Below are positions 1,974 to 30,277 of a stretch of DNA of 64,000 nucleotides, in pieces. The DNA is from Sphaerolaimus hirsutus. Lineage: Eukaryota > Nematoda > Chromadorea > Monhysterida > Sphaerolaimidae. Numbering within the stretch: the stretch's first letter is position 1; each line of letters opens with the position of its first letter. The stretch spans positions 23,639,927 to 23,703,926 of the forward strand of contig OZ038451.1 in assembly GCA_964036195.1 (NCBI GenBank), written 5' to 3'. The notes beneath the pieces are model-generated. The model was not told where the DNA came from. It did no database searches and was given only the letters and a program-made list of their open reading frames with translations. The translations under genes were made by a program, and so were the position numbers.

Positions 1974-3292
1974 TAGGGTTGGCACTTGATTTTTTAAAAA
2001 CTGATTAAAACACAATATGATTTAAAAAAATATCACAGGGTGGAAACTAATTTTAATTTAAAAAAATCAAAATGGAAAATTACGGTGGACTTGGGTATTT
2101 TGCAATTTTTTGCATGCAAGCGCGCAATTTCCAATACACATTACCATTGGTGGTGTTTTCATGGGTTTTGGGACATTTTTAGTGTAAAAGATTGTATTTA
2201 TACATGCTACCATGTACGGTTGGGAAAAAATCAATCAATTTTAAATAAAATCAATTTTTTTAAATGATTTAAAAAAAATTAAAATCAGATTTTTTTAAAA
2301 TCGCCCAAAATGGGGGTGTAGAGAAACAAAATATGTATGTTGAGTGTCAGACAATGTATTGTTATGTCTGTTGTGGTCATATTATGACTGTGGAGTCATG
2401 GGATAGTATTATAAGCAGTGATTTCTTTCAAAAATCACCATTTTACATCGACTTATTATGTATATCGCCTTTTGTCGACGTTTTGTGACTTCAAGTGAAG
2501 TTCAGCATGGAATAGTGCTAAAATAAGGTTGTAAGAGAAGGCTAATACATCCACAGTGATGTTACACACTGTAGAAGTATGTGGGAGCACATTGGTTTGA
2601 TATTATATACTACACTAGCATATCATGGCTTTTTATTACACGGTAACATGAATAAATGGAAAATCTCACACTAAAAATGCCCCAAAACCCATGAAAACAC
2701 CACCAATGGTAATATGTATGAGAAATTGCGCGCTTGCCCACAAAAAATGCAAAATACCTAGTGCAAGTTAACCAGAAATTTTGCCTTTTGATTTTTAAAA
2801 TTAAAATCAGTTTCCACCCTTTGATTTAAAAAAAATCAATTAAAAAAACTCAAGTGCCAACCCTACTACCGTGTAATAATAAGCTGTGATATGTTAGTGT
2901 AGTATATAATATCTAGCCTATGTGCTCCCACATACTTCTACCGTGTGTAGCATCACTGTCAATATATTGGCCTTCTCTTACAACCTTATTTAAGCACTAT
3001 TCCATGCTGAACTTCACTTGGAGTCATGTACGTCTGACAAAACACAATATATGTAATAAGTCGATGTAAAATGCATATTTTTGAAAGAAATCACAGCTTA
3101 TAATGCTATCCCATGACTCCACACTCATAATATGAACGCAATATACATAACAATACATTGTCTGATTCTTAACATACACATATTTTTTCTCTATACCCCC
3201 ATTTTGGGCGATTTAAAAAATTCTTATTTTTATTTAAAAAATCAATTTTAAAAAATCAAGGCGTTTAAAAAAATTGATTCTTTTCAACCCTA
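1974..3292. mobile_element. hAT-like MITE, long palindrome (TAGGGTTGG family relative)
   Basis: Ends are TAGGGTTGGCACTTG and the inverse, with a flanking 8-bp duplication CTCATAGT/GTCATAGT (one mismatch). The two arms are inverted copies: both contain the run ACCATTGGTGGTGTTTTCATG or its complement, a TGCAAGCGCGC-type box, and the CCCCATTTTGGGCGATT end block. A close relative forms the host of the nested cluster at 55450-58578. No open frame of note. Confidence 0.75.
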
Positions 3293-4125: not shown

Positions 4126-4247
4126 GACCCGCCCGTTACCATCAGCGGTCCCACCACGGGCAGCGGCAGCGTCGCCACCACGGGCGTAGCCGCGAACCCG
4201 CAGGCCACCACCACCGGCCCCAGCTCCAGGACCAGGAGCAAGACCAG
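4126..4247 (+). CDS. Gene 1 exon a (first visible)
   Basis: The acceptor is TTTTCGCCCAG and the donor is CCAG|GTGTCA. The chosen frame reads DPPVTISGPTTGSGSVATTG and then a basic end SSRTRSKT; it is the only + frame that joins the next exon without a stop (the junction codon is AG+G, Arg). The antisense frame is also open, which GC-rich low-complexity sequence often shows. Confidence 0.6.
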
Positions 4248-7200
4248 GTGTCAATTCTGGAGCCTGTAAGGTGCCCTGGAAGGTGGAAAATGTCACCGCA
4301 AAGCGTCAAAAGTCACGTAAAATGCCCGGCAAAATGGCAAACGTACGTTGACGGGCATTTTACGTGACTTTTGACGCTTGGCGTGACATTTGACACTTTA
4401 CAGGGCGTTTTACAGGGTCCGGGACTGCGCCCAGGGCCGCCACCGCCGCGCAGTCGACCGCGCCCGACCACCACGAGGGCGAGCAGGCGGGACCGTCGGG
4501 CAAAAGGGCGTCGTCGGGGGGCCCGGCCGCGTGCACTTCGGTACGTTGTCTGGCGACCGTGTAAATATCTCTGTGGGGCATGAAAAACGAAGTTTTGCAA
4601 TTTTCCAGTTTTGCGAAGTATCAATCTTCATGCAAATAATAATAAATGATTACCTAAATAGAAAAACGTCGTTTTTCAACTACTCTGTTTTTTATAAAAC
4701 ATCGTTTTTGTCCAAAATAAAATGTGGCTGTTCAAAAAATCTCCCAAATATGATTATGTGTGAGCAAAAAAAACAGGTATATCGGTCAAGTGAAAGTACT
4801 TTGTTACGTTGTATTTATACACCGTATTGGCTTGTTTTGAGTACCATGCTTGAATTGAGTACCATGCTCGAATAGAGTACCAGACCAGGGTAACCACGTT
4901 ATGAAAAAATACAATACCATGCTTGAATTGAACCCCCCCCCCCGAACACCTAAATAGAAGCAAACGTAATGTGGGGAACACAATGTTTTAAACGTGACTG
5001 CATGCGAGCGGCACAAGCCCTTCTGTTGTTAAATGTCTAGTCACTGTAGTAATTGTCTAGTCTAGTAATTGTCGCAGCTGATGCATTTATATCCTAATTG
5101 TCGCAGCTGAAATAGATATATCTACTAAATGTATGTATCGTATCTATAATGGAATCAAAATATGTACTAAATCTCTTAAGAAAAAATACAATACCATGCT
5201 CGAATTGAGTCCCACTGTAAGCGCCCTATGAAAAAATACAACCCCCGTGGTTCAAAACAAGCCAATACGGTACCTAGGCATAGAAGGGATGGAGCGATGG
5301 GATATGTGGCTTATATTCTGTCCAGGGATTTTTGTGCGGGGGGGCGTCGCCCCCCCCCCCTAAAATTTGACCCATGGAGAAGGGACGTATCCAGGATTTT
5401 TGAGCGGGGGGGGGGGGGCTGCTTGTTTACGGAGGCCGGCGAACGGGGGGGGGGGGGGCTCAGCCCCCCCCTGAAATTTTTCCCTATATAGGGACGGAAA
5501 GGCGTTTTGGCGCTAGCGCCATACAAAGGCCCCACGCCATGGCACTTTTGGTTTAGGCGCCAGCGCCAGGAACCGCTTTATATGTATGAAAATATGCATA
5601 CATACACAGCGAAAGTCATAAAAATATGTTCATTTCCAAAGATATTGATTTCCAGGGACAGATCCGCTGAAGATACAATACATGGGGAAGGAATTGCGCG
5701 CTTGCGCGCAAAATTTTCAAGAAACATCGAAAAAAATATATAGGAAAAGTTGCATTTTCCGGGACTTTTCAGGTCTCACCCCGGGAAGGGGGGGGCTGCA
5801 GCCCCCCCCCCCGCCCCCCCCCCCCCTGGATACGTCCTTGCCATGGAGTAATGCAATGGAACCAACCCATGGCGCTGGCGCCACTCGTAGGCGCAACGCC
5901 ATGGCGCTATAGGCGTCGGTATAGGCGCCACAGACCGCTCTATATGTATGTATTTTAAATAAATATACACGTTTGAAACGTGGACATGGACACATTTAGG
6001 TCTGTCGCGACCGTGGGATCAAAATACCTGTCGCGCGAAGAAAAAATGCGCGCTTGCGCGCAAAATTTTTGGAAATCACCCCAAAAATCGGTCCCGAAAT
6101 CACGATTCCGTGAGTGTTCATACTATCACCCGCCCCCCCCTCTGGCTACGTTCTTGATTCTGTCAAAAATTCCACTTGTCATGCTTCTCTTTTATTGGAG
6201 GTGTATGGCTTTAAAAAAATTTATACCTTTATATGTTGATTCATAACTATATTTTGGAGCTTTTTAAAAAAAAACGTTGTTTTTAACAAACCGGGTCGTA
6301 AAAAACAACGTTTTCCATCCCTACTCATACTCATGAATGTTTGGGAACTTGACAGTATATTTAGAAATTTTCGGGAATTTCAGTAAAAAAACAGAGTCAC
6401 TAAAAACGTTTTTTTTTATCCCTACTTTAAGCGACAAATTCTGGTGAACCCTGAGTAGCGTTGGCTCCTACCATAGGCGGCGCAAGGTCCCAATTTTTGC
6501 TTGTGACATTCACATTGGCCAAAATTTGACCTTGTGACACTTTTTTACTAGGTATGCTTTTCGCTAGGTATGCTCATTACCGTATTACCTCGAAATACCC
6601 CCATGGGGGTTTATTTTTTCCCCAGCAAAATTTGAGGGGGGGGGGTTAATTCGAGGGAGCGGGGGTTATACGAGGGGGGGGGTTTTATTAATTCGTCGGA
6701 AATTGTCGTAAGGACCATAGTAAAATGTAGGTATTCGCGTACCCAAAGCATGAAATAAATGCGTCCAAACAGGATAGATTTGGACATAAAAACGTAAATA
6801 GCTATACTCCAGCGACATTACACCTTACAACGAAATCTACCATATCCCATCTGAATAAAACGACAAAAATAACAAAATTTCATCATATTTATCAATATGC
6901 TTTGATAAATATAATGGAAAACAAATTATGTTTGTTCTTTTATTCAGATGGGATATGGTAGGTTTCGTTGTAAGGTGTAATGTCGTCAGAGTATACACTA
7001 TGTCCGTGTAGCTGCGATGCAAATTAGCAGTAATAAATACATCATGTAGGTACATTGCATACATTATGTACATCCTTCGAGGGGGGTATTTCGAGGGAGG
7101 TTATTAATTCCCCAGCCCATTTTGAGGGGGGGTTAATTCAAGGGGGTGTGAAGAAAGTGGCAATCTTGATACATATAGACTGGTTTGGTTTGCACAATGG

Positions 7201-10200
7201 AAATCTTAACAATTAATGCAGGCGAATAATTTCAATATTCTTAATTATTTCAATATTTTTCATTCTGCATTAGGCGACAACAAAAATTGCAGCAAATTTA
7301 AAGCAAGCAACAGTGAGAAAAAATCTAAAAACACTGAATTACACAAGCATGCAGAATTTTTGAATTGGCAACCGGTAGAGGCATTAAAAAAATGCTGCCC
7401 CCACCTCACTCCCAGCAAAAGGTGCGCTGTGCGCTGACTGCTGCACACACGTTTGTATGCTATGAATGGTCGTCCTCGATTTGCATTATTTTTGGCGCGC
7501 GCGTACCGATTTCATGGGAAATGCAGCTTTGATTTCGTTCTACTGTATGGAGAATGTTGTATCCTGGAGTAAATTTATGTATGTGGGGACCGTCAGAAAT
7601 TCCGCTTGTGAATGTCACATTGTGACACCCGAATTTCTACTTGTGACACCCAAATTTCCGCTTGTGACATTCACACTGTCACAAGCACTTACGCCGCCTA
7701 TGGCTCCTACCAACTTACTTTACTGGTTGAAACATAATTTTGAATGCAAGAACAGAATAGAAATCATGGAATGGATGGGACTGACAAAAAAATATTTTTA
7801 CCACAGTTTGTCGTTTTATCCATGTCAATGTAAAATGTACATGAACTCCTTTAATGTCCAAATCCTGGCGACCCGTTTGGGCACACCCACTGGACATCTC
7901 GCTCTGTCAACTGACCACAATAGCCTTCAACACGCAGAAGCACCCCCGCCTCGCCGTGGGCGACCAGCCGGGAACGTCGGGCGCGCAGCCGCCGCCGCAG
8001 TCGCCGCCCGTTTCCGATCCGGGCGTGCCGGCGGCCGCGTCCACGCCCATCCTCGATCCGGGCGCTTTCCCGCTGGTGCAGCAAGGGCCAGTCCCGGACC
8101 CTGTCATCGTACGTTTGCCATTTTCCAGGGCATTTTACGTGACTTTTGACACTGTGCTTGACCTTTTCCATCTTCCATGGCGTTTTACATTGCCTTGGAC
8201 TGCCCCGCAGGCGGTGCCCGCGTTCTTCGCGGACTTGTTCGGGCTCGAGGCGTCGGCTGCGGAGGCCAGCTCGCACAGCGAGCCCAGCTCGGCGCCCGAC
8301 GAGCCCGACGAGGACTCGGACGACCCGTTCGCCGAGCCGCCGCTGGAGGAGCAGATCGAGAACGACCACGATCTGCGCCAGTGGCTGCTCGACGAAATGG
8401 CCGAGGTGGGTTGCTTGGAGGGTACGCGGTTGATTTTGAGAGTGCGATGGGTTTTTTTATGGTGGATGTGTCATACAAAAATATGGCGTTTTTTATGTCG
8501 AGTGGTTGTGTTCTAAAAAATAGCGAAAATTGAATATGAATATGTATGTAAATGTGATATAGTGACGTGTTGTATTGTGTCTATTATTTATATTTATGCG
8601 GGAATCGATCACTTTGTCACCTTGGAAAAACTGCAATCTCATCTAACCCCCCCCCTCGGTGTATTTTTTCTTCACACTATCTTTCTCCTACTTTACTGGT
8701 GAATTTGATGCACGACTTTTATTTTACATGTGGCCATTACATTAAACAAATTTTTGGTGCTTTTTACAGGGTGCGGAACTGCTTATTTACGGTACAGATT
8801 TTCAATTCCGAACTTTGGCATCATGGTCTGTCGGTAATTAGAATTTTTATCGACTCGTAGCCAGATAGCTCAATGGCGACGGGATGTACCAAACAAATGT
8901 GAATTGTGCCGTCGATGGTGATGGGATGACACTATGGCGCTGGCGCGAGGGCGCCAAAAGTGGTTGTGAATTGCATGGGTACTGGGGCAAATTCTTAAAA
9001 TGGTAACTGATAAGTGGAGTTCTGTTGTGAGTCAAGGGACGAGTAAATTAGAATATACTGCCCATGCCTCTTACTTGTCATTTCACTACCGTATTTCTAG
9101 TAATAGAACGGCATAACTCCAATAGAACGGCATTTACAATAGAGCGGAAGGTGAGAAAGCTGACGAAAAAATAGAACGGCGCTCTTCTATTAGAAGAAAT
9201 ACGATAATCGTTTTACAAAAAAATTAACTTTTCTCCACACTTTTTTGGCTACATCAGGGCGCCCTTTCTTACGCAACACGATTATTCCGCGCGCGTCATA
9301 CCATCACCAAAACGTGTCCCACCCACTCACAGGCCACCATGGAGCTGCGGGACGAGCTGCACGCGCACAACGGCCGCGCCAACGACCAGCAAGTCCGGGA
9401 CGCCGTGGCGGACTGGTGCGCCGTCATGGCCGACTTGGTCCCGATGTCGGGCGGCTTCCTGCACCGCCTCATCGACCACGAGGGCTGGATCGAGCTTCAC
9501 CAGGGCGTCTTCACCGTCGCGTTCAGCGTGATGGTGAACGAGGCCTCGGGGGAGGTTAGTGAATGGGGGGGGGGGGTAAGTAAGTGATCTGGGGTCAGTC
9601 CCAGACCCTGTAAAATGCTCTGTAAAAATGTCAAATGTCACGCGGAGTGTCAAAAATCGTGTGAAATGCCCGGTAAAATGGCAAACGTACGTTTACCATT
9701 TTACCGGGCATTTCCCATGACTTTTGACACTTTGCATGGCAAAGCAAATGCACGGCATTTCACATTTTTTACTGGGCATTTTACAGGGTCTGGGACTGCC
9801 CCATGGGTCAAGGACGTATCCAGGATTTTGGAGCGGGGGCTGCTTGTTTACGGAGCCCGGCGAACGGGGGGGGGGCTCAGCCCCCCCCCCCTGAAATTTT
9901 TGCGTATGTGGTGGCGCCATTCGTAGGCGCCACGCCATGGCGCCATTGGCATTGGCGCTGGCACCAAAAATCGCTTATATGTATGTGAAAATACGTACAT
10001 ATATAGCGACAACCCCGCCGTTTCATCTATTTAAAGGAAAATTATGTGTACAGGGATTTTTTCAAAATAACCCTGTATGATGGACAAAATTCCTGTTGTT
10101 CCTGTTAAAATTCCTGATGGACAAAATGTATTCCTGCTTGCGCGCAAAATTGTTACAGTACACCTTCAAAAGTTGTTCTAAAAGTTGCATTTTCAGCAAC

Positions 10201-14410: not shown

Positions 14411-16726
14411 TAGGGATGGCACAAAATTTTTTTTGTTATAAATAAATCAAGTGGCAATTTCGAGCCTGTGCCTTAATGCACGTAAACTCCCAGTGCATGT
14501 GGGCTCCCAGTGTACGTAGGTCTACTCTCAGTGCACACTGACTCCCAGTGCACGTAAAAGCCCCCAGTGCACATAAACTCACAGTACACATAAACTCCCA
14601 GTGCATTTATGCAGCCTGTTAGCAGTGCAACACAACTGCAAATTTGCCCCCCCCCTTGCAGTTGTGTGAAATTTGGTATTTGAAATTTTGATCCACATTT
14701 TGACATTTTTCCAACACTGGTTCAGAATTACCAACCAGTGTTCACATTTTTAAAATATTTTTTGTATTTTTATGCAAATCAAAATTTTTGGTTTTCAATT
14801 TTCAAAATTTTCATTTTACATAGAAATACAAAAATATTCACAAATGCACACAGCCCATGGCTGGGGGAAGGTGTGGCTGCATTGCACAGTGAACAGGGTG
14901 CATACATGCACTGGGAGTTTATGTGCACTGGGGGTTTACGTGCACTGGGGGTTTACATGCACTGGGGGTTTACGTGCACTGGGAGTCAACGTGCACTGGG
15001 AGTAGACTTACGTCTAAAGGGAGTTTACATGCACTGGGAGTTTGCGTGCACTGATAGTTTCAGCTGTGATTTCTACAAAAAAAATTTTTTGTTATTTTTT
15101 GACTTGTTATGTAATCACCTTTTGTCGAATGTTTGTGACTTCAAGTCAAGTTTTGCATGGAATAGTGCTTAATAAAGGTTATAAGAAAAGGCTAATACAT
15201 TGACAGTGATGTTTCACACTGTAGAAGTAAGTGAGAGCACATTGGCTGGATATTTTATGCTACACTTACATATCACAGCTTATTATTGCACAATAGCATG
15301 AACAAATGGAGGCCTTCACACTAAAAATGCCTCAAAACCAATGAAAACAACCACCAATGGTAATGTGTATATGAAACTGCGCGCTTGCGCGCAAAACGCT
15401 TGTCTACAGTCGGCACGCACGCTTGTCTACAGTCGGCAAAACTTGTCACATGTGATTCAGCCCACATGTCTGGTGAAAGTGACACTGCACTCTCTGCCGT
15501 TGTCATACATGAGTGTCTTGCTGTTTGAAGTTAGTCACACCCAGAAATTGAATTTAAATTTATACAAAAAACATATTTTTTATTTCAACTCTTGTGTGCA
15601 GAAATATGTATGCACTAGGGATGGCACAAAATTTTTTTTATTATAAATAAATCAAGTGGCAATTTCGAGCCTGTGCCTTAATGCACGTAAACTCCCAGTG
15701 CATGTGGGCTCCCAGTGTACATAGGTCTACTCTCAGTGCACACTGACTCCCAGTGCACGTAAAAGCCCCCAGTGCACATAAACTCACAGGGCACATAAAC
15801 TCCCAGTGCATTTATGCAGCCTGTTAGCAGTGCAACACAACTGCAAATTTGCCCCCCCCCCCTTGCAGTTGTGTGAAATTTGGTATTTGAAATTTTGATC
15901 CACATTTTGACATTTTTCCAACACTGGTTCAGAATTACCAACCAGTGTTCACATTTTTAAAATATTTTTTGTATTTTTATGCAAATCAAAATTTTTGGTT
16001 TTCAATTTTCAAAATTTTCATTTTACATAGAAATACAAAAATATTCACAAATGCACACAGCCCATGGCTGGGGGAAGGTGTGGCTGCATTGCACAGTGAA
16101 CAGGGTGCATACATGCACTGGGAGTTTATGTGCACTGGGGGTTTACGTGCACTGGGGGTTTACATGCACTGGGGGTTTACATGCACTGGGAGTCAACGTG
16201 CACTGGGAGTAGACTTACGTCTAAAGGGAGTTTACATGCACTGGGAGTTTGCGTGCACTGATAGTTTCAGCTGTGATTTCTACAAAAAAAATTTTTCGTT
16301 ATTTTTTGACTTGTTATGTAATCACCTTTTGTCGAATGTTTGTGACTTCAAGTCAAGTTTTGCATGGAATAGTGCTTAATAAAGGTTATAAGAAAAGGCT
16401 AATACATTGACAGTGATGTTTCACACTGTAGAAGTAAGTGAGAGCACATTGGCTGGATATTTTATGCTACACTTACATATCACAGCTTATTATTGCACAA
16501 TAGCATGAACAAATGGAGGCCTTCACACTAAAAATGCCTCAAAACCAATGAAAACAACCACCAATGGTAATGTGTATATGAAACTGCGCGCTTGCGCGCA
16601 AAAAAATTATTAAGTACCTAGTGCATCAGTACAAAAACTTTTGGCTGATGTTTTTTTTAAAACGATTTCGATGACTGTTTTTTTTAATAAAAAAAGACGG
16701 TTCAAAAAACACGCGTGCCATCCCTA
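14411..16726. mobile_element. hAT-like MITE TAGGGATGGCAC with internal tandem duplication
   Basis: Ends TAGGGATGGCAC and GTGCCATCCCTA, with exact 8-bp duplications GTATGCAC at 14403-14410 and 16727-16734. A third GTATGCAC-TAGGGATGGCAC junction lies at 15608, because about 1.2 kb (flank plus left part of the element) is duplicated head to tail. The unit starts near 14214 and again near 15421, with nearly identical copies. Each unit has two minisatellite blocks of GTGCACTGGGAGTTTAC in opposite orientations (for example 14475-14600 and 14905-15050). Confidence 0.82.
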
Positions 16727-19275: not shown

Positions 19276-20935
19276 CTCAACACACATAAATAAAATAAAA
19301 AACAGTTCTAACACTTTGTTTTCAGGGTAAATAAGAACCATAATAAAACTCGAAAATTTGTATGGCTTCCCCTTTTGAAAAAATTTGAGTTCATGTTTTA
19401 AGTTCTTACTTTTATACAGTTCATGCCCAGCACCTACTTAAATTGTCATCTGAGTAGGTGCTTAGCATGAACTGTGTAAAGTACAAACTGAAAACATGAA
19501 CTCAACATTTTTCATAAGGGGAACCGATACAAATTGGCGCTCCACACACAGCTATTTTAAAAATAAGTTCGAACGTTTTTTGGCAAAGTATGAATACCGT
19601 ATTTCTTCTATCCGTTCTATTTTTTCGTCAACTTGTATACCTGCTGTTCTATTGGAGGTTGACGAAAAAATTTGAACGATGTTCTTTATTAGAAGAGATA
19701 CGGTATGCATACTTTGCCAAAAAAACGTTCGAACTTTTTTAAAAATGGTTGTGTGTGGAGCGGCATTTTCTAATTTTATATGGGTTCTGATTTTGAAAAA
19801 AGCGTTCGAACTTATTTTTAAAATTGCTGTGTGTGGAGCCGCAGGGTGTACGAGGGTTTAGCGGGCGTTTAGTAAACGCGGCCGTAATGTAGACCTGGCC
19901 GTAATGTAAGCCTACCCAGCCGTAAAGTAGGCCCAGCCATAAATTAGGGGGTGCTACATTACTGCCGGGCATCATTACGGCTGGGTTTACTTTACGGCCG
20001 GGTTTACATTCCGGCCGAGTGGGGGGATTAATGTTTTTAGCTATTTTTCTAGCTAAATAGCTATTTTTTAACGTTTTTTCCACTTTACACTTTTTCAAGT
20101 GATTTTTGGATTTAAGTAAAATGAAAAAAAGTTGAGCAATGCCATTGGTCAACTTTTTTTCACTTCACTCAAATCCTAACATCACTGGAAAAAGTGTGAA
20201 GTGAAAAAAACTTTCAAAAATAGCTATTTTTCAACGTTTTTTTTTTACTTGACACTTTCAAGGGATGTTTGGATTTGAGTAAAGTGAAAAAAAGTTGACC
20301 AATGGCATTGCTCAACTTTTTTTCAATTCAACTCAACTCCAAAGATCACTTGAAAAAGTGTTAAGTGAAAAACGTTGAAAAATAGCTAAAACACTAATCC
20401 CCCCACTCGGCCGGAATGTAAACGTCAAGGGTTTTTTAAATAAAAAAACGTTTTTTTCAAAAGCTCACCAGATATGGTCATGAGTCAACATATACAGGTA
20501 AATCAGACATGTGACAGTACTTTATGGTGTTATAAATAGCCATATGATGGCTGTAGAGTCATACGATATCATTATAAGTGGTGATTTCTGTCAAAAATAT
20601 CCATTTTATGTCGGCTTATTACGTATATTGGCTTTTGTCGAACGTTCGTGACTTCAGGGCCGTATCTAGGGGGGAGCTGCAGCCCCCCCTCCCGGGGCGA
20701 GACCAGAAAGTGACCGACAATTCGACTTTTTCAACGTCAGCATAAAAAATTTTGCGCGCAAGCGCGCATTCTTCACCAGAAATACGGTATTATCATTCGA
20801 TTTGCTCCATGTGGCTTTTGCTCCATGTGGCGATTTGCTCCACGGTTTAAATGGTCGTTTTTTTAAAAATAGAACGTTTTTTATTTTAAAAAAACCCTTG
20901 GTCATCCCTACCGCCGATATTCACCCTCGTTTCAG
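19276..20935. repeat. Upstream flank of gene 2: foldbacks and GGCCGTAA repeats
   Basis: Holds a foldback at about 19335-19530 (AAGGGGAACC-type arms), the 19595-19704 foldback (ACCGTATTTCTTCTA ends) and tandem 20-bp variants of CGGCCGTAATGTAAGCC at about 19875-20010, with a twin block at 31116-31262. A palindrome spans about 20005-20420 (CCGGCCGAGTGGGGGGATTA against its complement). An element at about 20425-20910 ends TCATCCCTA and carries GCGCGCAAGCGCGC at 20754. No first exon of gene 2 was identified. Confidence 0.6.
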
Positions 20936-21206
20936 GTCGGCCCGTGCAGCGCGCAGTACTGGTACTGCGGCGGTGGCCAGTGGGTGCATACTTCGTGCCA
21001 GTCGGGCACCATCTACAGCCCCTCCAATAGGCAATGTGAAGAGCCTTCTTGGGTTCCTGGCTGCGTGCCTGCAACTCAACCACCCCCGCCGAGCAATCCA
21101 CCGCCAGCCGCGTGCCAAGATGGAGCGAAATACCCCGCTGCGCCGTGTACTGACGTGTTCTGGGTGTGCAGCCAGAATACATGGTTCCAGAAATGGTGCC
21201 CTGGCA
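20936..21206 (+). CDS. Gene 2 exon 1 (end of CBM14-1, start of CBM14-2)
   Basis: Acceptor CCTCGTTTCAG, donor GGCA|GTGAGT (phase 1). Encodes VGPCSAQYWYCGGGQWVHTS, closes the module at WVPGC, has a Pro-rich linker, and opens CQDGAKYPAAPCTDVFWVCS followed by WFQKWCPG. Confidence 0.85.
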
Positions 21207-21290
21207 GTGAGTTTGGCATTTTTTGGACTGAAAAGTGTGTCTATGCTAGCCCCGTCCCATATTTACGTGCCCTTTTTCACGCACAACCAG

Positions 21291-21415
21291 GCACCATATT
21301 CAACCCGTCGAATGGGCAGTGCGAAGAGGCGTCCTGGGTTCCTGGCTGTGTGCCAAATATGACCCCGGTGCCCAGCAATCCACCGCCACTGTGCCAGGAG
21401 TCGACGACTTACCAG
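21291..21415 (+). CDS. Gene 2 exon 2 (end of CBM14-2)
   Basis: After an 84-bp intron. The junction codon A|GC gives Ser. TIFNPSNGQCEEASWVPGC completes the module and CQESTTYQ opens the next; donor ACCAG|GTTGGC, phase 0. Confidence 0.85.
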
Positions 21416-21621
21416 GTTGGCCATTATTTTTGACACTCCACCGACTATCCGTGGTCTAGGCTGTTTTTAACGGTTTTATTTTTAAAAGTGTGTGTTTTTT
21501 AAAACATGGGCATCGAAACCGTCTTTCAAACGAGCCAAAAAATTTTTTACACTTTCATCTTGTCGCTAAATCATAAATAAGTGCACAATTCACGCCCCGC
21601 CCCCCCCCCCCCCGCCCGCAG

Positions 21622-21810
21622 GTGGGCCGGTGCTCTGCGCAGTTTTGGTTCTGCAACGGGGGCCAGTGGGTGTTGACATCGTGCGGGGCTGGCTCGATCT
21701 ACAACTCCAACAATGGGCAGTGCGAGGAAGCTTCGTGGGTGCCCGGCTGTGCGCCGACTACCACCACCACGCAGGCGGCACCGCAGTGTTAGGAAGGGCT
21801 GACGCACCCG
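21622..21810 (+). pseudogene. Gene 2 exon 3, with in-frame TAG
   Basis: Phase 0/0, 63 codons. VGRCSAQFWFCNGGQWVLTS is followed by NGQCEEASWVPGC and a TTTTT linker, then PQC and TAG at 21790-21792 where every sibling module has CAG (Gln of CQEG). It continues EGLTHP to donor CCCG|GTAAAT. A single C-to-T change explains the stop. The exon length is a multiple of three, so skipping keeps the frame. Confidence 0.8.
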
Positions 21811-22287
21811 GTAAATTTGGGTGACGCAAGTACAAGTACCTCCACTTTTGTATGAAGAGCTAGGACACTATTTAACTACCCCGTTTTTGTAAAGTATAGA
21901 TACTATTTTTACGGCATGATTGAGATCAATGAGCACTGAACTCCATACCATTAGACTGAAGTCCGGTGCACCCTACTTTGAATTTGCAGCAACGATTTTG
22001 GCTTCTTGAATTAATATTTTGTCCAAAATTGCTTATAAAACGTCAAAAATGTGCAGTACTTTTTGTGAAGAGTAGATATCTTATTTGATGCTCCGCGGTC
22101 AATTCCGCAAATGGAGAAGTGAAAATTTCACATCTGAATTGTGTTTTTACTTCATTTGCGGAATCGGTACCTGATCTGAGCTTATCGTGAATGTGTGCTG
22201 GGCAAACCGGCAACTAATTTGACGAGACGTTAAAAAATAGTAAGTAGGCTTTCTGACCATCTAATTTGATATACTCGTCTCTTTCAG

Positions 22288-22473
22288 GCAGGCACGTGCG
22301 CGCCTTAATATTGGTACTGCGGCGGCGGCCAGTGGGTGCTGACCTCCTGTGCACCGGGAACGATTTTCAACCCATCCAATGGGCAATGTGAAGAGGCTTC
22401 GCGGGTACCCGGCTGCGCGCCGTCGACGCCACCTTCGAACCCGCCGCAATGCCAGGATGGCACCACTTACCAG
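22288..22473 (+). pseudogene. Gene 2 exon 4, with in-frame TAA
   Basis: Phase 0/0, 62 codons. AGTCAP, then TAA at 22306-22308, then YWYCGGGQWVLTSC. The corresponding position is Gln (SAQYWYC, SSQYWYC) in other modules, so CAA-to-TAA is the simple explanation. The rest of the exon is intact through CQDGTTYQ. Confidence 0.8.
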
Positions 22474-22775
22474 GTGGGTTCATCCGGCGGCAAATGTTCT
22501 CTGCATGTTTGCTACTTTGTGCGACAAGGTCCAAGGCTAGATTTTGAGAAAAATTGTTTTTAACTGCCATAATTGCAAAAGAAAGCACGAATTGACATTT
22601 TAAGGCATAAAAATTAATAACCATTAAGTTGTAATGATTATGAGGGATGTGAACATAAGGGTATTCGAATTTTACCCACTGCATCCGTTCCAATATGTTT
22701 GTTCATGGTTAATTTCAGAAACTTGAATTGCCGCTTAAAAATATTCGAACAATTCAAATTAAAACTCATTCGCAG

Positions 22776-22958
22776 GGCGGCGCGTGCAGCTCTCAGTACT
22801 GGTACTGCAACGGCGGCCAGTGGGTGCTGACATCGTGTCAAGCTGGAACTGTGTACAACCCGGCTAATGGGCAGTGCGAGGAGGCTTCATGGGTACCTGG
22901 CTGCGTGCCAACCACCACTGCTCTGCCGCCACAATGCCAGGAGGGGACTACATATCAG
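22776..22958 (+). CDS. Gene 2 exon 5 (CBM14)
   Basis: 61 codons, phase 0/0: GGACSSQYWYCNGGQWVLTS, QAGTVYNPANGQCEEASWV, a TTTALPP linker and CQEGTTYQ. The 3' half is nearly identical at DNA level to exon 6. Confidence 0.87.
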
Positions 22959-23383
22959 GTTCTTGTAGATATTACGCTCATTGTGATTTAATCTATTCTG
23001 CGACGTTAAATTACATAAAAGCACCCATTACCTGCCGAACAGATATTGTTTTGGTTGGTGTTCTTCTGAGCTGCGAAGAGATTGTAAAATGTATTCCCAG
23101 CGTCACATGTATTCAACGTGCGCCGATGACGCCCTGGCGTGGCGTCCAGAAATGTAATTTATATTTTTCAAATATAAGAAAATATGAAAAAGTAATCATT
23201 TTTCCCTAAATTTTTCTAGATTTATTATATTTCTTTCGTAGTAAGAAAGTATAAAAAAATCTCAACTGTGCGCTAAAAAAAAAATGTATTTTATTTTTTT
23301 AATTCCTTTTTAATACCTATTTTTGAATCCTTAAAAATTCCTATTTTTAGCACGTTATTTCATCGTGTTCCATGCATTCTCAG

Positions 23384-23566
23384 GCCGGTGCGTGCACACC
23401 ATCTTATTGGTACTGCAGCGGCGGCCGGTGGGTGCAAACTTCTTGCCAGGCTGGTACGATCTACAACCCGGCTAATGGGCAGTGCGAGGAGGCTTCCTGG
23501 GTACCTGGCTGCGTGCCAACCACCACTGCTCTGCCGCCACAATGCCAGGAGGGAACTACGTATCAG
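23384..23566 (+). CDS. Gene 2 exon 6 (CBM14)
   Basis: 61 codons, phase 0/0: AGACTPSYWYCSGGRWVQTS then the same YNPANGQCEEASWVPGC, TTTALPP and CQEGTTYQ as exon 5. The last 100 bp differ from exon 5 at only a few sites, while the introns are unrelated. Confidence 0.87.
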
Positions 23567-23918
23567 GTCGATTCAGGGTCTTAAGATTTATATCTTCTCT
23601 TGCTGCGTTTATTTACGCAAAAATTGCTTATCAGGGTGGGCATAACTAGAAAATAACATTTGCAATGTTTAGCATTTTTGTTTAATGTGAGAAAATTTTT
23701 TCTCGTTTACCATTTTGCAGGGCATTTTCCATGAAAATCAAGCGAAAATTCTTTTAAGCGGGATTCTTAAAAAAATTTGCCACGCCTGGGTAACGAAGGA
23801 AGCTGAAGGATCAAGTGTGGCATGGTAACTAACATTTTCGCTTTTCGCTAGATAGCAGCTTAGCATGTGTAGTGTATATTGATAACTAAGCGATTTTTTA
23901 TCCTGTGATCTTTCTCAG

Positions 23919-24117
23919 GCCGGTGTGTGCACGCCAGTTTATTGGTACTGCAGCGGCGGACGATGGGTGCAAACATCCTGCCAGGCTGGCACCATCTACA
24001 ATCCCAGCAATGGACAATGCGAGGAGGCTTCGTGGGTGCCCGGCTGCGCGCCGGTTACGACGCCAGTGCCCAGCAACCCACCGCCTCAATGTCAAGAGGG
24101 GACTACCTATCAAGTAG
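23919..24117 (+). CDS. Gene 2 exon 7 (CBM14)
   Basis: AGVCTPVYWYCSGGRWVQTS followed by SNGQCEEASWVPGC, a linker with VTTPVPSNPPP and CQEGTTYQV. Two donors overlap: CAA|GTAGGT (phase 0, after 24113) and GTAG|GTCCTG (phase 1, after 24117). Only the second matches the phase of exon 8. Confidence 0.78.
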
Positions 24118-24233
24118 GTCCTGGGGTATTCTAGATGCTAACTTTTCTGATGCGTTTAAAGAAGTAAAGACGCAGAAAATAAGCGATAAATCACATAAAC
24201 TAGTGATTTTGAAAGTGGAAATCTAAAATTTTG

Positions 24234-24375
24234 TATAAAAATGTAGCGTTTCTCTGAAATTTCGCTTGGCGGTTTGGGGGGTTGCCCCCCAACCCCCCAC
24301 TTTCCTACCCCTGAGCCATTTCGCTTGGCGGTTTGGGGGGTTGCCCCCAACCCCCCACTTTCCTACCCCTAAAAT
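24234..24375. repeat. Tandem duplication of about 64 bp in intron 7 of gene 2
   Basis: Two head-to-tail copies of a unit starting TTTCGCTTGGCGGTTTGGGG and ending CCACTTTCCTACCCCT, each with a G-run and C-run able to pair. The copies differ by one C. Confidence 0.8.
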
Positions 24376-24561
24376 ACCATACTTGCTATATCCATGCGAC
24401 TATCCGTTTGTAAAACTGCGCGCTTGAGCACAAAAAAATGCAGAATATATAGTGAATACGCACTGATTGTTGCTTTTGAATGTGTTGCAGTTGTTTAAAA
24501 ATGTGTTTTTGATGCTTGTTTTTAAAAACTGTTGAAAAATGTGTCAACCATAACCTCACAG

Positions 24562-24741
24562 GCTGCGGCGGTCCCACCACCCCCGGTGACCCCTGCCGGG
24601 GGCGGAGCAAATTGCCGCTGGGCCCTTGCCAAGAAGAATACCTCAACTGCGCCAATGGCCAGAGCTTCCGGCTGTGGTGCCGCTACGGCACCGTGTTCGA
24701 CCCGAATGTGGGCGTCTGCAGGCCACCCTCCGTTGTGCCCA
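24562..24741 (+). CDS. Gene 2 exon 8 (divergent CBM14)
   Basis: The CBM14 frame starts in phase 1: (G)CGGPTTPGDPCRGRSKLPLG, then CQEEYLNCANGQSFRLWCRY, TVFDPNVGVC. Donor CCCA|GTGGGT, phase 1. Another frame is open over the same bases but has no domain pattern. Confidence 0.8.
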
Positions 24742-24762
24742 GTGGGTACTTTGGATTCTGAC

Positions 24763-24915
24763 TAGAGATGAAAGTTTTTTCAACTACCTGGTTTTTTAAA
24801 ACCTTTTTTCAAAAGTGTTTGAATAAAAAACCTACGCAAATTTTTAGGATTTTGAAAGAAATGGAGTCAACATGGGTTTAAAAAAAACCTTTTAAAAAAA
24901 CTCCGCCCATCCCTA
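24763..24915. mobile_element. Short hAT-like MITE (TAGGGATG family) in intron 8 of gene 2
   Basis: 153 bp, ends TAGAGATGAAAG and CATCCCTA, flanked by ATTCTGAC and CTTCTGAC (8-bp duplication, one mismatch). Mostly A/T tracts. Confidence 0.65.
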
Positions 24916-24965
24916 CTTCTGACAGCTGGGTTCTCCTCAACAATGTGGAAAATAACCCGTTTCAG

Positions 24966-25150
24966 GCTGCGCTGGTACGCCGAACCATACGCCGCCAACC
25001 CTGCCGTCGGTGTGCACTGACGGTGTGAAAATTCCCGCTGGCGCCTGCACCAATGAGTTCTACGTGTGCATCGGGCGGCGGTTTGGCAAGAAATGGTGCC
25101 CCAGCCCGACTGTGTTCGACGCCAGCACGCTCACGTGCAGGAAACCAAAG
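24966..25150 (+). CDS. Gene 2 exon 9 (divergent CBM14)
   Basis: (S)CAGTPNHTPPTLPSVCTDGV, KIPAGACTNEFYVCIGRRFG, KKWCPSPTVFDASTLTCRKPK. Starts phase 1, ends phase 0 at CAAAG|GTTCGA. Five to six Cys in CBM14 order. Confidence 0.8.
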
Positions 25151-25438
25151 GTTCGATATTGGGCAGGTTGTCTTACGGAGTTATTTATTTTGCGGAATAA
25201 AATATTATTTATTTTGAAAACCTTTTAAATGGGGTGAATAGCAAGAATGAATGACAAAAATTGTAATATGCGCATTTGCATCCGGAATATTGCAAAATAC
25301 ATAGTGCTCAAGACCTACGAAAAATAGTTCTCTGAAGCTATCTGTTCCTGAATCTCAAACCTCAGATTTTTAAAATAAGAAACCGAAATATTTAAAATAA
25401 AAATTCAAAATAATCGACCAAGTCGCTTCGACATTCAG

Positions 25439-25632
25439 CACGTGGACGACTGCGACGCGGACGACACTGACTCCGATTCCGACTCCGGCGCCAGCGACTT
25501 CGAGCTGGAGCAGCTGTTCGACGAAGCCGACGGCGCCGACTCGTTCGGTTGCCTGCTGACTAGCGCCCTCGCCAAGATGATCAACACCGTGGATGACGAT
25601 TTCTGTGAAGGCAAGGACAATGGCTCTTACGA
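25439..25632 (+). CDS. Gene 2 exon 10 (acidic linker)
   Basis: Acceptor CGACATTCAG. HVDDCDADDTDSDSDSGASD, then FELEQLFDEADGADSFG, AKMINTVDDDFCEGKDNGSY. The final C-EGKDNGSYE is the opening of the next CBM14 module. Ends phase 2 at CGA|GTGAGT. Confidence 0.8.
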
Positions 25633-25967
25633 GTGAGTGGTCATTTTCTGAGTGGGGGTGTGCAGGCTGTCGGTAGCAAAACTGATTTGACGTAACTTCG
25701 CGATTTTCACGTGATTCAAATTAAGAAACTCGAAGTGCAGAGTGAAATGAAAAATTCAAGTGTACAATTGACATGAAAAAGTGCCAAGTGTAGCATGAAT
25801 TTGCTAATTAGTTGCCTGTGCTAAGTTACGCAAAAAGTGACGTTATCTTTACGATATTTACTTTTCACTTCACTGGTCTGCATCGCGTAGTTTAGGGTTT
25901 AGCGTTTAAATGGGACGGTTCCTTCAACCGGCTTCCTGCAACGTAACCCCCATATACACTTTTGCAG

Positions 25968-26106
25968 GTTGTCCAAGTGCCAGGCGATGTTCGTCACGTG
26001 CGCCAACGGCAAGGTGCATCGGCGGTGGTGCAACGAACCCTGGCTGAGTTACAATGCCAAGCGGGGTGAATGCGTTTTCCGCCCCTGGTGCTACACCAAT
26101 GTGGAC
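25968..26106 (+). CDS. Gene 2 exon 11 (CBM14 core)
   Basis: Joins as E|LSKCQAMFVTCANGKVHRRW then CNEPWLSYNAKRGECVFRPW and C. With exon 10 it forms a classic six-Cys CBM14 module. Donor GGAC|GTGAGT, phase 0. Confidence 0.82.
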
Positions 26107-26606
26107 GTGAGTTCACGTCATGGCGGTCATTTTTCATTTTCTCGGCTGATGAAACTGTAGATCCATCCACGAAATCGCGCAATAAGTTGTTCTCAGCGAT
26201 CAATTCCGTAGATAAGTCTTTGGCATGTTATCTCTGCGGAATGAGTAAAAGTAGTGCCGTTATAGTGGCATGTTTACAGGGATCGTCATGAAATTTCACC
26301 AACTAACAGAAATACGCGACAGCACAAATTATCCTCACTTGGCATAAGTAGCAATTGCAATCAAATATAAGAATGGACCGACCAGTGAATTGGGTCAGTA
26401 AAAACCAATGCGTAGTAATAATTTTCCGCACTTACCGTAAATTTTCCGTGAGATATATTATATCTGTGTGTAGCCCTAATCCGGATTTCTATAGCGGATT
26501 TCTATTTCTGCGATCTTTATAGGTCCGGATCCGGGCCCTCGGATATCTATAGTGTCTCACGTCCTCACGCGAGTAGAGCATACTTTTAAAAGCCTATCAC
26601 ATTCAG

Positions 26607-26737
26607 ACGGACTCATCGCATGACGTTGACGAATTGGTGCCGAGCGATTTGCGCTGCAAGAATTTGCCAGACGGACTGAATGCCATCGAATGCACCCCCT
26701 TCTACGTTCGCTGCGAGGATGAGCGAGTCGTTGAGAG
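26607..26737 (+). CDS. Gene 2 exon 12
   Basis: TDSSHDVDELVPSDLRCKNL, PDGLNAIECTPFYVRCEDER. C-x-N-L-PDG...C...F-V-RC is the first half of another divergent CBM14. Ends phase 2 at AGAG|GTGAGT. Confidence 0.75.
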
Positions 26738-27131
26738 GTGAGTTTTCGTTAGCAATTTTTAGGCTATTTTCCAGCTGTTTCTGTTGTGTAATGGCCATTT
26801 TTGATGTCATTCAAGCGTGTTCTTTTTCCTCAGGTTTCCGCCGTTCTAGATATTAGATGAAAGACAAAAATATTTGAGAGAAATATTCAAGTTTACGGTT
26901 ACAAAGGTATTTTAAAAGTACCACGTTTTAGTATTTATACTTCCAAATTGTATCAATACTTCTATACGTAAATACTTTAATTTTCTATTAGAAACGTGAA
27001 CGTTTTCCCAAAATACCAGTATTTTGCATCACTCTGGCTTCTTGTCCCGGTGGTGTATGGCAAAATATTTGGTGGGGGGCTAGCTTGGATGCAATACATA
27101 GTTTGCAATGCTTAACTGACTTACTGTTAAG

Positions 27132-27309
27132 GTTCGTGTGTCCGTGGCCCTTCTACGTGTACAACGAGCCGTGGGACAAGCGCGAGTACTCTAGCCGACG
27201 GGCGTACAAATGCCGCAACTCGCCCTTCTATCTCAGTCCCAAGCATTCAGAGTGCACCAGCGGTTGGAACAAGACAAACTGGACAAATATGGCGGCAGCG
27301 ATGATCCGG
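27132..27309 (+). CDS. Gene 2 exon 13
   Basis: Phase agrees with exon 12: R|FVCPWPFYVYNEPWDKREYS, then YKCRNSPFYLSPKHSEC. The donor is weak: CGG|GTTCGT (phase 0) or GTTC|GTGTCT four bases later (phase 1, needed by the next exon). Confidence 0.65.
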
Positions 27310-27802
27310 GTTCGTGTCTCGTGCTTTTTGAGACTTGAAAACTTCAGGAAACCAAAATCGAGACACTTGAAAACTTCTGGAAACCAAAATCATTTGGAAA
27401 GCCTTTTTTGAAATATTATTTCGGAAAACACTAGAAAATATTTGATAAATTTTTTTGAAAATGCTTTATGGAAATATTTTATTTTGAAAATACTTAATGA
27501 ATTGAATGAAATTCTTGATCATCATATTGTGCCTACACGCACAAAAATGCTAATTAAAATCTGAAAATTTGAAAACTAAAACACCAAGCACACAATAGTA
27601 GGCTGGATGTCGCCATGTCGTTATTTCAGTTTCCACAAATGTCACGGTGAAAACTAGTGTGTGTAGGGCCAATATTGATCTCTCACTAACGCCCCTGCGT
27701 TCTAAGTTGCTGCTGTTTGTTACTGCACATTTTTTGTGGTATTACTGTTTACAGTGTATTTATTTTGCTGTCCAAATTAATTTCTCATTTTAAATATTGC
27801 AG

Positions 27803-27929
27803 ATTCTGTGGAAGCGTTGCTGGCCGGTGTCGGCTGATCAAGTGATGACGACATTTTTGATTTCTCCGACTTGTCCGATTTTGGTGTTGCCGAATTCTCG
27901 TCGCTGGATGATGTTCGCCGATTTGGCTG
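27803..27929 (+). pseudogene. Gene 2 exon 14, acidic linker with probable in-frame TGA
   Basis: In the frame that yields a linker like those around it, it reads SVEALLAGVG, TGA (27835-27837), SSDDDIFDFSDLSDFGVAEF, SSLDDVRRFG. The phases at both ends need non-standard donors, so this exon may be decayed or no longer used. Confidence 0.5.
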
Positions 27930-28208
27930 GTTCCAGTGCGTTTTCTTGAATAGTTTCTGCTTGTCCTACACACGCTAGTTTACATCGCAAATTCGTGTCA
28001 ACTCAAAATCACCAAAAAATCTTTAAAAGAATCACATTAAACAGAAACAATGAAAATAAAGTGTCATGATATATAATTGACTATGCTCTTTCAGATAGGA
28101 ACATTGAAATCACATAATTCACTAAAATTTAGTTGACACGAATTCAGTTGACATCAATCGTGTGGCGCCTTTATCCAGTTGCGTGCATTGACGCGCGTAC
28201 TTGCGCAG

Positions 28209-28467
28209 CGCTGCGCCGTAAGCGGTCGCTGTCGCTGGTCGACTCCGACGTCGGCGGCAGCGGTGGGTCGAACTCTGATTTGTTCAATGATCTACTGCGC
28301 GGCGGCGAACGATCCAACTTTGACCTGTTCGATTTGGCGGGTGTCGCGGGACAGGATTTCAACTTCCCGATCGGTGGCTTCAATGGATTGCTTGATGGCT
28401 CTTACAGTGGATACGACGCGGACCCGTACAGCATCGCGCTGACGCTGCGAGGTAACAGCTTGGAAAA
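28209..28467 (+). CDS. Gene 2 exon 15 (Asp/Gly/Phe-rich linker)
   Basis: LRRKRSLSLVDSDVGGSGGS, SDLFNDLLRGGERSNFDLFD, FNGLLDGSYSGYDADPYSIA, ending NSLEK. RRKR could be a proprotein-convertase site (inference). Donor AAAA|GTGAGT, phase 2. Confidence 0.72.
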
Positions 28468-28887
28468 GTGAGTTTTTGCGGGGTCCCGCGGGCGACGCTC
28501 ACCTATTACTGTTTGGTGTAACTAGGGGTGGAAAAAATTGTTGAAATGCAAATCAAGTCGATAAATTCAAGGAGAAAAGAAATGCAGCAACAAATCACTA
28601 AAAATGCCATAAAATCAGGTAAAACAGACACCAATGTAAAAAAAACACCTCAGGAAAAATGTTGCAAAATACCTTCTTAGGTACTAAAAATTCAGACAAC
28701 GGTTTCTGAAAAAATGTTGCGATACCTGTTTTTATTGTATAAAAAACCGTTACCGGCAATAATTGTAATAATATAATAATAATTATCACCCGGCGCATAT
28801 TGAACACATTTGCAATACATCCCGTGTCAAATCACACGCGGGGGGGGGGGGGTGTGTTCTCCGAGAATACAACCCATACACTTGCAG

Positions 28888-29220
28888 CGTGTTCGGCGAC
28901 CTGTCGCCGGACCAGCGTGACTTCGGCAGAAAAAAACCCGTGCGGCATCGTGGGCGAAGGTCGGGTCATCCCCGGCCACCCGCCCTGCTCCAACACGGTG
29001 TTCCTGTGCGTGGGCGGCAAGCCCTACCGCAAGCAGTGCCCCGCCGGACACATCTTCATGGACAGCGGGTTTTCGCCCGGCGGCGACTGCTTCCCGCCCA
29101 GCTACGACAACCGGTGCAAGGACGGCCCCGTGGACAGTGATTATGGATATGCGTTTGTCAACGACCTCGGCACGTTCTCGTTGAGCGACGCCAGCGACGC
29201 GTTGGGCTTTTTCAATTTTG
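28888..29220 (+). pseudogene. Gene 2 exon 16, CBM14 with a +1 frameshift in an A tract
   Basis: The spliced frame enters as N|VFGDLSPDQRDFGRK, but the CBM14 module NPCGIVGEGRVIPGHPPC, NTVFLCVGGKPYRKQCPAGH, GGDCFPPSYDNRC is in the next frame. The switch falls in A7 at 28930-28936, where six A would keep one frame. An acidic linker, VDSDYGYAFVNDLGTFSLSD, follows. Ends phase 1 at TTTG|GTTGGT. An assembly error cannot be excluded. Confidence 0.72.
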
Positions 29221-29393
29221 GTTGGTTTCCTTTTGTTATTGCGATGATTGACAAAAGCTTGGAATGGGGCGTGGTTTTTTCCTGTCGGGTGCCAGGAGTC
29301 GTGTCTGGTCGCACCAGGTACCCGAAAATCTGTTTCTGAATAAACACAAAATCATTTGCTTAGAGCTTAGCTGTTGAAATGCAGATGGTTTGA

Positions 29394-29514
29394 TGGTCTG
29401 GGGCAGTCCCGGACCCTGTACAAAGTCAAATGTCATGCAAAGTGTCAAAAATCGTGTAAAATACCCTGGAAAATGTGTTTGACATTTTACTGGGTATGGG
29501 ACTAGCACCAGCCT
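29394..29514. mobile_element. INT-family MITE copy in intron 16 of gene 2
   Basis: GGGCAGTCCCGGACCCTGT at the left and GGGTATGGGACTAGCACCAG at the right. The right edge shows the CAC-CAG terminus expected of the element followed by an AG acceptor-like trinucleotide. Confidence 0.7.
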
Positions 29515-29606
29515 GACTTTTTATGCGTCCAAAAAATTACCACTTTACAAATTGTTGAACGATGTCCAAAAAACCTACAAAAATACTAAAAACACTGAAT
29601 CCAAAC

Positions 29607-30251
29607 TAGGGTTGGCCGATGTTTTTTTTTAAACGTTTTTTTTTTTAAAAAACATGACGTCCGAAATGTTTTTTTTTTTTTAAAAAACATCGGCCGAAAT
29701 TTTTAGTACTAAGCACTAGGTATTTTGCAAAATTTTTGCGCGCAAGCGCGCAATTTCACACACAAATTGACATTGGTGGTTGTTTTCATTGGTTTTGTTG
29801 CATTTTTAGTATCAAAACATCCATTTCTATGTGCTACCATGGGTGAATAAGCCGACATATGTTGCTGTAATATATAATATTGAGGTAATGTGCTTCCATG
29901 TACCTCCACAGTGTGTAACTTCACTCCCAAAGTAACAACCTCCTTTTATAACCTTGTTTGATGACCATTCCGTGCCAAACTTTACCTGAAGTCACGAACA
30001 TTCAACTATAAGGCGATATACAAACAATATGTTGACGAAAAATGGATATTTTTGACACAAATCACCACTTATAATGCTATCCCATGGCTCCACAGCCATT
30101 ATATGGTCATATTTAACATCACAGAGTATTGCCAGTGTCTGATATACCTATATATGTTGACACTAGGTCATATCTGGGAGCTTTTAAAAAAAACGTTTTT
30201 TTTATATAAAAAAACATCGAGTTAAAAAAAAACGTTTTTTTTCCAACCCTA
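29607..30251. mobile_element. hAT-like MITE, TAGGGTTGG family, in intron 16 of gene 2
   Basis: 645 bp, ends TAGGGTTGGCCGATG and CCAACCCTA, exact 8-bp duplication ATCCAAAC (29599-29606, 30252-30259). Carries GCGCGCAAGCGCGC at 29738 and TCCATGTACCTCCACAGTGT. No coding frame. It ends only 26 bp before exon 17. Confidence 0.9.
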
Positions 30252-30277
30252 ATCCAAACTGCCTATCGCTCGCCTAG

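Follow-up and report, generated by a model that had tools for sequence, protein, structure and literature searches.

A 64-kb stretch of the genome of the nematode Sphaerolaimus hirsutus (G000:C2:23639927-23703926, referred to here as the window) contains a candidate gene, gene 1, in which several copies of a palindromic repeat, INT, are found. Here, we describe an analysis of INT in the window and in the assembly to which it belongs (348,482,957 bp in 762 contigs). We present evidence that INT is an introner, a palindromic transposon resembling a miniature inverted-repeat transposable element (MITE), which would insert in coding exons and be removed as a spliceosomal intron. From the sequence, we put the probability of this reading at roughly 0.86.

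Putative exon E1 of gene 1 (4126-4247, plus strand) ends with CAG in phase 2, and its frame is open into putative exon E2 (4435-4540; donor G|GTACGT, the bar marking the border), whose sense frame has a positive score that the minus strand approaches. Between them lies INT1, a 184-bp copy on the plus strand (4248-4431), with the left end GTGTCAATTC as putative 5' splice site and the right end GGGACTGCGCC. INT1 is bordered by a target duplicate, CAG, at 4245-4247 on the left and at 4432-4434 on the right, the latter being the putative 3' splice site. With INT1 removed, E1 and E2 are open in one frame (...RTRSKT|R|AATAAQ...); with INT1 retained, the same frame reaches a stop after 7 codons. A preliminary description of this DNA had called 4248-4434 an intron consisting of almost nothing but INT. 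The interval is indeed INT from end to end, and its borders and the joined frame support an intron, but the codon scores of E1 are ambiguous.

Exons E3 (7938-8084), E4 (8211-8405; donor GAG|GTGGGT) and E5 (9333-9554; donor GAG|GTTAGT) follow on the same strand, and no piece of gene 1 reaches the Pfam cut-off. E3 ends with CAA, where the paralogous locus L011 has CAG, and is followed by INT2 (8085-8206, plus strand), a decayed copy in which most of the left arm is deleted and the donor GTG has become GGG. Its right target duplicate, CAG, is recognizable at 8208-8210 from the sequence and from L011, which bears an intact copy at this site (CAG|GTGCCAG...CCCCCAG|G, positions 2917-3112 of that locus). 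The interval 8082-8210 is open in frame over 43 codons. INT2 may be a former introner that is now translated through, or it may be spliced from the palindrome centre (GTACGT at 8109). Thus the second INT intron of the preliminary description, 8109-8210 or 8076-8210, is derived from INT and ends at a CAG, but with its donor lost it is not a clean intron. INT also occupies the INT1 site (locus L006, duplicates CAG/CAG) in the paralogous loci L007, L008, L010, L011 and L012. L007 (G000:C1:9886728-9889937), on another large contig, duplicates the gene 1 region in rearranged form, with 86-95% identity over the five largest pieces, which measure up to 2 kb.

INT is a genome-wide family. A similarity search of the assembly, in which 40 of 2,700 first-look candidates were scored, gave 82 matches. 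The ends of INT were read in 92 loci (L006-L097); both ends were present in 80, of which 70 were distinct by left flank. This left-flank filter removed the paralogues L007, L010 and L021 and kept L006, L008, L011 and L012, as well as L023 and L029; L063 and L064 are a single element counted twice among the 70 copies. Three loci (L026, L033 and L034) represent the opposite strand of L022, L014 and L015 and were omitted from locus tabulations. An internal 23-mer occurs at 282 places (137 forward, 145 reverse), the first 100 of which, on contigs C1-C4, yielded 62 loci and 46 distinct copies. Left ends number 1,009 as CAG|GTGCCAGTCCCRGACC and 842 as CTG|GTGCC..., and right ends number 1,190 as CTG|GGGGCAGTCCCRGACC (a right CAG) and 806 as CAG|GGGGC... 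(a right CTG); the reversed controls of the 23-mer and of all four end patterns gave 0. In the window, matches to a 17-bp end motif with three or fewer mismatches number 9 against 0.08 expected, which, together with the profile matches described below, confirms the repeat on which the preliminary description was built. At G000:C1:27179349-27179769 (L108), one INT copy apparently lies in or beside another INT-like copy, and its left flank resembles an INT arm.

Forty-nine full-length copies give a palindromic consensus of 192 bp. Its arms mismatch only at positions 2 and 4, reading GTGC on the left and GGGG on the right. The change at position 2 of the left arm would create the GT of a 5' splice site. 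The GT(G) had been described as part of the element, and it does arise from this two-base asymmetry in an otherwise perfect palindrome. The 49 copies were selected from the 70 for a length of 170-200, a left end GT and a right arm starting with G, and the T at consensus position 2 is therefore present by construction, because the filter demanded a GT left end. Among all 70 copies, 34 have exactly GTGC/GGGG ends and none has GGGG at both ends. The right arm begins GGGGCAGTCCC, that is, with a GGG terminal inverted repeat from which the left arm deviates. The copies diverge from the consensus by a mean of 8.5% (3.1 to 14.6; n=49), and the predicted RNA fold of 4248-4434 is one hairpin (-119.9 kcal/mol, z -15.4). 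By its structure, INT is a non-autonomous, MITE-like DNA element.

The sequences bordering INT reveal its target. When the 70 copies are oriented with the GTG end on the left, the duplicates are CAG/CAG in 24, CTG/CTG in 14, CTG/CAG in 8 and CAG/CTG in none; the remaining 24 are not CWG (CAG or CTG) on both sides. Two further loci, L019 and L069, whose right side was read one base off register, are CTG/CAG by eye and lie outside the 8. Pairing of exact ends, confined to contig C1 below 29.1 Mb, gave 25 CAG/CAG, 16 CTG/CTG, 4 CTG/CAG and 0 CAG/CTG pairs (Fisher P 7.5e-9). An exact partner within 600 bp was found for 25 of 88 left-CAG ends and 20 of 79 left-CTG ends, and a few of the pairs span more than one element length (up to 598 bp). 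The two sets overlap in some CAG/CAG copies, and their CTG/CAG copies are independent. In addition, locus L067 reads ...GATAGCTG|INT|ATG|GAGCGTTTGG, and a paralogous empty site within a repeat in the window (52526-52566, GATAGCTGGAGCGTTTGG; 34/42 identical) has a single CTG where L067 has CTG-INT-ATG. The paired duplicates, the exact ends on C1 and the empty site together indicate that insertion of INT duplicates 3 bp, CWG. The preliminary description had INT inserting at CAG; CAG/CAG duplicates are common, but CTG is a target as well.

Many INT copies lie in DNA that appears to be coding, for which GC-rich (guanine-plus-cytosine-rich) DNA was used as a proxy. Both 75-bp flanks have a GC content of at least 0.55 in 23 of the 46 distinct 23-mer copies. 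The background is 140 of 1,676 CWG sites in the window (8.4%) and 345 of 2,945 in the fetched loci (11.7%), and the excess over the latter has a P of 2e-10. Eight more CAG|GTG copies were read: in five, the GC content is at least 0.54 in the flanks on either side, in one it is not, and in two no right end is in reach. The reading frame was followed across the insertion in copies with a flank GC of 0.5 or more and CWG as both duplicates, using a codon table trained on window exons to compare the consistent join with the two shifted joins after removal of the element and one duplicate. The consistent frame scored best in 33 of 38 copies with 90-bp flanks (P 1.3e-11), a count that includes one three-way tie, some winners below zero and several paralogues. 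Other flank lengths gave 30/39 (60 bp), 31/37 (75 bp) and 33/38 (120 bp), and the 23-mer loci by themselves gave 15/18.

Removal of INT also restores known proteins. Among 19 joined peptides, hand-picked from 255 open reading frames at one per locus, 10 matched a known protein across the INT junction. These include Na/Ca exchanger 1 (PDB, E 1.6e-10), whose alignment has a gap of two residues immediately before the junction, an immunoglobulin (Ig) domain and LamG, the last barely, by nine residues. Pfam domains spanning the junction are Aa_trans, Sec23_helical, I-set, Es2, Cyclin_N, KH_1 and Col_cuticle_N, the nematode cuticle collagen domain found at L091 (E 1.5e-12). There is no change of length in the joined alignments of Sec23_helical (79/79) and I-set (90/90), and by eye the joined L105 sequence regains an EGF-like cysteine pattern. 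If INT is retained, a stop usually follows after 7 or 23 codons, depending on phase, in most of the loci listed; the frame stays open over 131 codons in L011 and 70 in L024. Thus, in unrelated coding loci, INT copies end at CWG|GTG and CAG|G, and the domains, GC-rich flanks and frame point to insertion into coding exons; judged by frame and domains, these ends are the probable splice borders. Two candidates were set aside. An inner donor, GTAAAATG, is in frame with the outer acceptor, but the six codons that it would keep lower the scores of five domains (collagen 47.9 to 33.1, Sec23 73.3 to 59.4, I-set 81.9 to 69.2, KH 45.2 to 39.4, Cyclin 31.4 to 19.1); any six-residue insert would lower domain scores, so this result merely favors exact excision. 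L019 had been considered innexin-like, for which Pfam gave no support.

Where the two CWG duplicates of a copy differ, they differ in one direction. All discordant pairs have CTG on the left and CAG on the right (8 of 8 in the 70-copy set, 4 of 4 on C1), and the reverse pair, CAG/CTG, is found in 0 of 46 and 0 of 45 CWG pairs, respectively. The genome totals of CAG and CTG ends on the left and right given above lean in the same direction (P 0.0015). Among the CTG/CAG copies, the left CTG lies in the ELGGP leucine of the exchanger and in the tryptophan of the Ig domain, residues that are common to solved relatives. Because the CTG falls in these conserved codons, it is the original triplet, and the right CAG is derived from it by a T-to-A change. 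The one-way difference suggests selection for an acceptor in the right duplicate, and is the best sign from DNA alone that this duplicate works as a 3' splice site. The central proposal of the preliminary description, that INT carries one splice site, takes the other from the target duplicate and is spliced out, is supported by the matched duplicates, by the frame and domains restored on exact removal and by this CTG-to-CAG difference.

A profile of half of the element detects INT in the window at 4243-4438, 8079-8212, 9586-9808, 29399-29516, 37032-37119, 43860-43920 and 44268-44355, with weaker pieces at 8686-8782, 23705-23734 and 32968-33047. Self-comparison and this profile identify two full palindromic copies, INT1 and a copy in the intron after E5 (9592-9802, plus strand), which has CTG on the left and ATG on the right and lacks the GTG end. 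The intron after E4 holds a decayed half on the minus strand (8686-8782, E 0.0011). A short form on the minus strand (29400-29508) starts CTG|GTGCTAGTCCC, and at the opposite end one base is missing on the assumption of a CWG duplicate. Three left-hand pieces lie on the plus strand: a half at 37039-37120 (GTGCCAGTATC, immediately preceded by CAT), a fragment at 43861-43920 found by the profile, and a half at 44276-44355 (CAG|GTGCCAATCCC). The last closes a GC-rich stretch that is a possible exon, for which the preliminary description gave the borders 44190-44274 and a donor exactly at the INT left end. CAG does precede INT, but GTG starts at 44276, one base later, and the start at 44190 does not hold, the nearest acceptor-like CAG giving 44212 instead; 44212-44274 has a weakly coding score. 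Elsewhere in the window, several stretches of 20873-30525 (plus strand) encode Peritrophin-A (CBM_14) chitin-binding domains. Together with the cuticle collagen domain at L091, these few genes would by themselves suggest a nematode or close relative. Two nearly identical open frames of 162 amino acids (14684-15172 and 15891-16379) lie about 1.2 kb apart, and their near-identity and spacing make them probably a recent tandem duplication.

Introners of DNA-transposon type were reportedly described by Huff et al. in 2016. The existence of introners with features of DNA transposons is established in the available parts of a later study (Gozashti et al. 2022, PMC9860276), among them types that carry one splice site and co-opt the other from the duplicate (Fig. 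2C of that study). Like INT, these DNA-type introners are repeated introns in many genes, with inverted ends, short target duplications and a preference for coding DNA of high GC content. INT differs from those described there in being a single palindrome broken only at the donor, in its CWG duplicate, and in that many copies start without an AG acceptor, which some have gained by point change. The same parts of that study place introners in two animal groups only and name copepods, whereas the host of INT is a nematode. The hairpin introners of the dinoflagellate Amoebophrya, in the portion of PMC7789003 available, resemble INT in having direct repeats at their borders (3-5 nt) and inverted repeats that form a hairpin. 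Their inverted repeats are 8-20 nt long and their splice sites very varied and non-canonical, whereas INT is palindromic throughout and has GT-AG borders in its CAG/CAG and CTG/CAG classes. No INT family is described in the titles and opening lines of abstracts of the open-access papers listed on introners with Harbinger, nematode intron gain and palindromes, though one may have been published elsewhere.

The ends of INT suggest its parentage. NuwaI, a member of the PHIS (PIF/Harbinger-ISL2EU-Spy) superfamily, is marked by CWG duplicates and ends that usually start with GGG, and has hosts among bony fish, a beetle, a crustacean, a mollusc and an anthozoan (PMC4482050, available parts). These two features make INT look like a NuwaI-type MITE by structure, although membership is unproven. 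In contrast to NuwaI as described there, INT forms one palindrome along its entire length and is non-autonomous, and no transposase is tied to it. The available parts of that paper make no mention of nematode NuwaI or of introns. A PIF/Harbinger-like DDE_Tnp_4 family is present at a minimum of 163 places in the genome, and three of its loci (L098, L099 and L100, on C47, C12 and C7 of G000) were considered as the parent of INT. The family of L098-L100 was rejected, as these three loci have no INT end and one different end. L098 is 97-98% identical to the other two over about 2.5 kb, and one end of these copies reads GGCCCCACGCACACTAG, preceded by ATT, ATA or ATT. Another DDE_Tnp_4 group has an open frame of 257 amino acids. 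Relatives of INT were also sought with end-motif patterns in IMG/VR (0 matches) and GTDB (5 matches, L001-L005); by our own estimate about 4 were expected in GTDB, and the five were therefore taken as chance.

Several observations weigh against INT being an introner, beginning with gene 1, which is the weakest of the coding INT examples. E1 is of low complexity, with a weak codon score that the minus strand equals or betters, and the best codon score of the INT1 locus (L006) is on the minus strand. The donor CAG|GTGTCA has only a moderate score on the donor matrix used, one matched by 9.6% of GTs. The best phases to the left and right of the INT1 site disagree in L006, L007, L008 and L010 and agree in L011 and L012; given this disagreement and the low complexity of E1, gene 1 alone is insufficient proof of an introner. 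Beyond gene 1, half of the 23-mer copies (23/46) are without GC-rich flanks, 9 of the 19 submitted peptides have no match across the junction, the fetched loci include no empty exon site of an INT copy, and the three DDE_Tnp_4 loci gave no transposase with INT ends. Restoration of the frame speaks for insertion into coding exons and not for splicing as such. A six-way test of strand-and-phase agreement (chance 1 in 6) proved weak, because GC-rich DNA blurs the distinction between sense and antisense frames, and was replaced by the three-offset frame test; for GC-rich flanks it gave 7/20 (CAG/CAG), 3/6 (CTG/CAG), 5/10 (CTG/CTG) and 0/10 (other), and 4/24 elsewhere. Finally, five CTG/CTG copies that look coding in the sense direction (L028, L035, L044, L061 and L087) lack an AG precisely at the 3' end. 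Pfam supports three of them (L044, an amino-acid transporter; L061, Es2; L087, Sec24-like), and L035 is weakly coding with a shifted frame scoring best. In four of the five, a GT-AG pair near the ends keeps the frame with some codons kept or deleted, and in L061 only deeper sites do so. These copies may be spliced as GT-TG introns, use other sites that retain or remove some codons, or remain unspliced.

Such observations would fit INT being a MITE of the ordinary kind that inserts in GC-rich DNA, exons included. Its terminal GT and CAG would then be by-products of its end and target motifs, and many of its exon copies would be unspliced, recent or located in damaged genes. The CTG/CTG copies and those outside GC-rich DNA are expected of such an element, and NuwaI provides a precedent, having CWG targets and GGG ends with no splicing role stated in the available parts of PMC4482050. 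We nevertheless consider this explanation unlikely, as without splicing the one-way CTG-to-CAG difference is inexplicable, the donor is the only place where the palindrome is broken, and INT interrupts conserved domains in which its retention usually brings an early stop (though not in L011 and L024). It is still less probable that INT landed in pre-existing introns, replacing most of their sequence and creating none. The copy at 9592-9802 does sit in an intron, where non-INT sequence flanks it to the left and right, but in the exon copies coding sequence directly adjoins each duplicate, and the CWG of two genes lies within codons of conserved residues. For fungal introner-like elements, spread as RNA through reverse splicing has been proposed; for INT it is scarcely credible: nothing here favors it, and 3-bp CWG duplicates, inverted terminal repeats, CTG/CTG copies and copies outside coding-like DNA all oppose it.

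If INT is an introner, a transposase acting in trans, most likely NuwaI-like (PHIS), would insert it and duplicate the CWG. At a CAG on the coding strand, with the GTG end upstream, the intron would be canonical from birth: one CAG would end the upstream exon and the other would supply the 3' splice site. U1 would recognize CAG|GTG at the left end and U2AF the CCCCCAG formed by the right end and the duplicate, and the hairpin may bring both splice sites together. Insertion at CTG would leave a 3' end of CTG, which a T-to-A change in the right duplicate would convert to CAG. A broader proposal, to which we give even odds, is that splicing has shaped the whole element, leaving a palindrome symmetric save for the bases of the 5' splice site and entrusting the 3' site to the duplicated target. 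Since CAG and CTG are targeted at similar rates, one genome would then hold introns born canonical, CTG-ended introns that are tolerated, perhaps with help from the hairpin, and introns repaired from T to A, forming a series of birth and maturation.

The gain of introns has long been an open question, and animal introner families are rare. In INT, the source of both putative splice sites can be read from the sequence, and its CTG copies form a natural before-and-after experiment on the repair of a missing 3' splice site. A survey of nematodes counted 4,070 intron losses against 2,291 gains (PMC9169325, available parts); INT would be an engine of intron gain in a phylum in which surveyed losses exceed gains. 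If the link to NuwaI is true, introners would gain a concrete transposon parent, one whose target preference was pre-adapted to the making of introns.

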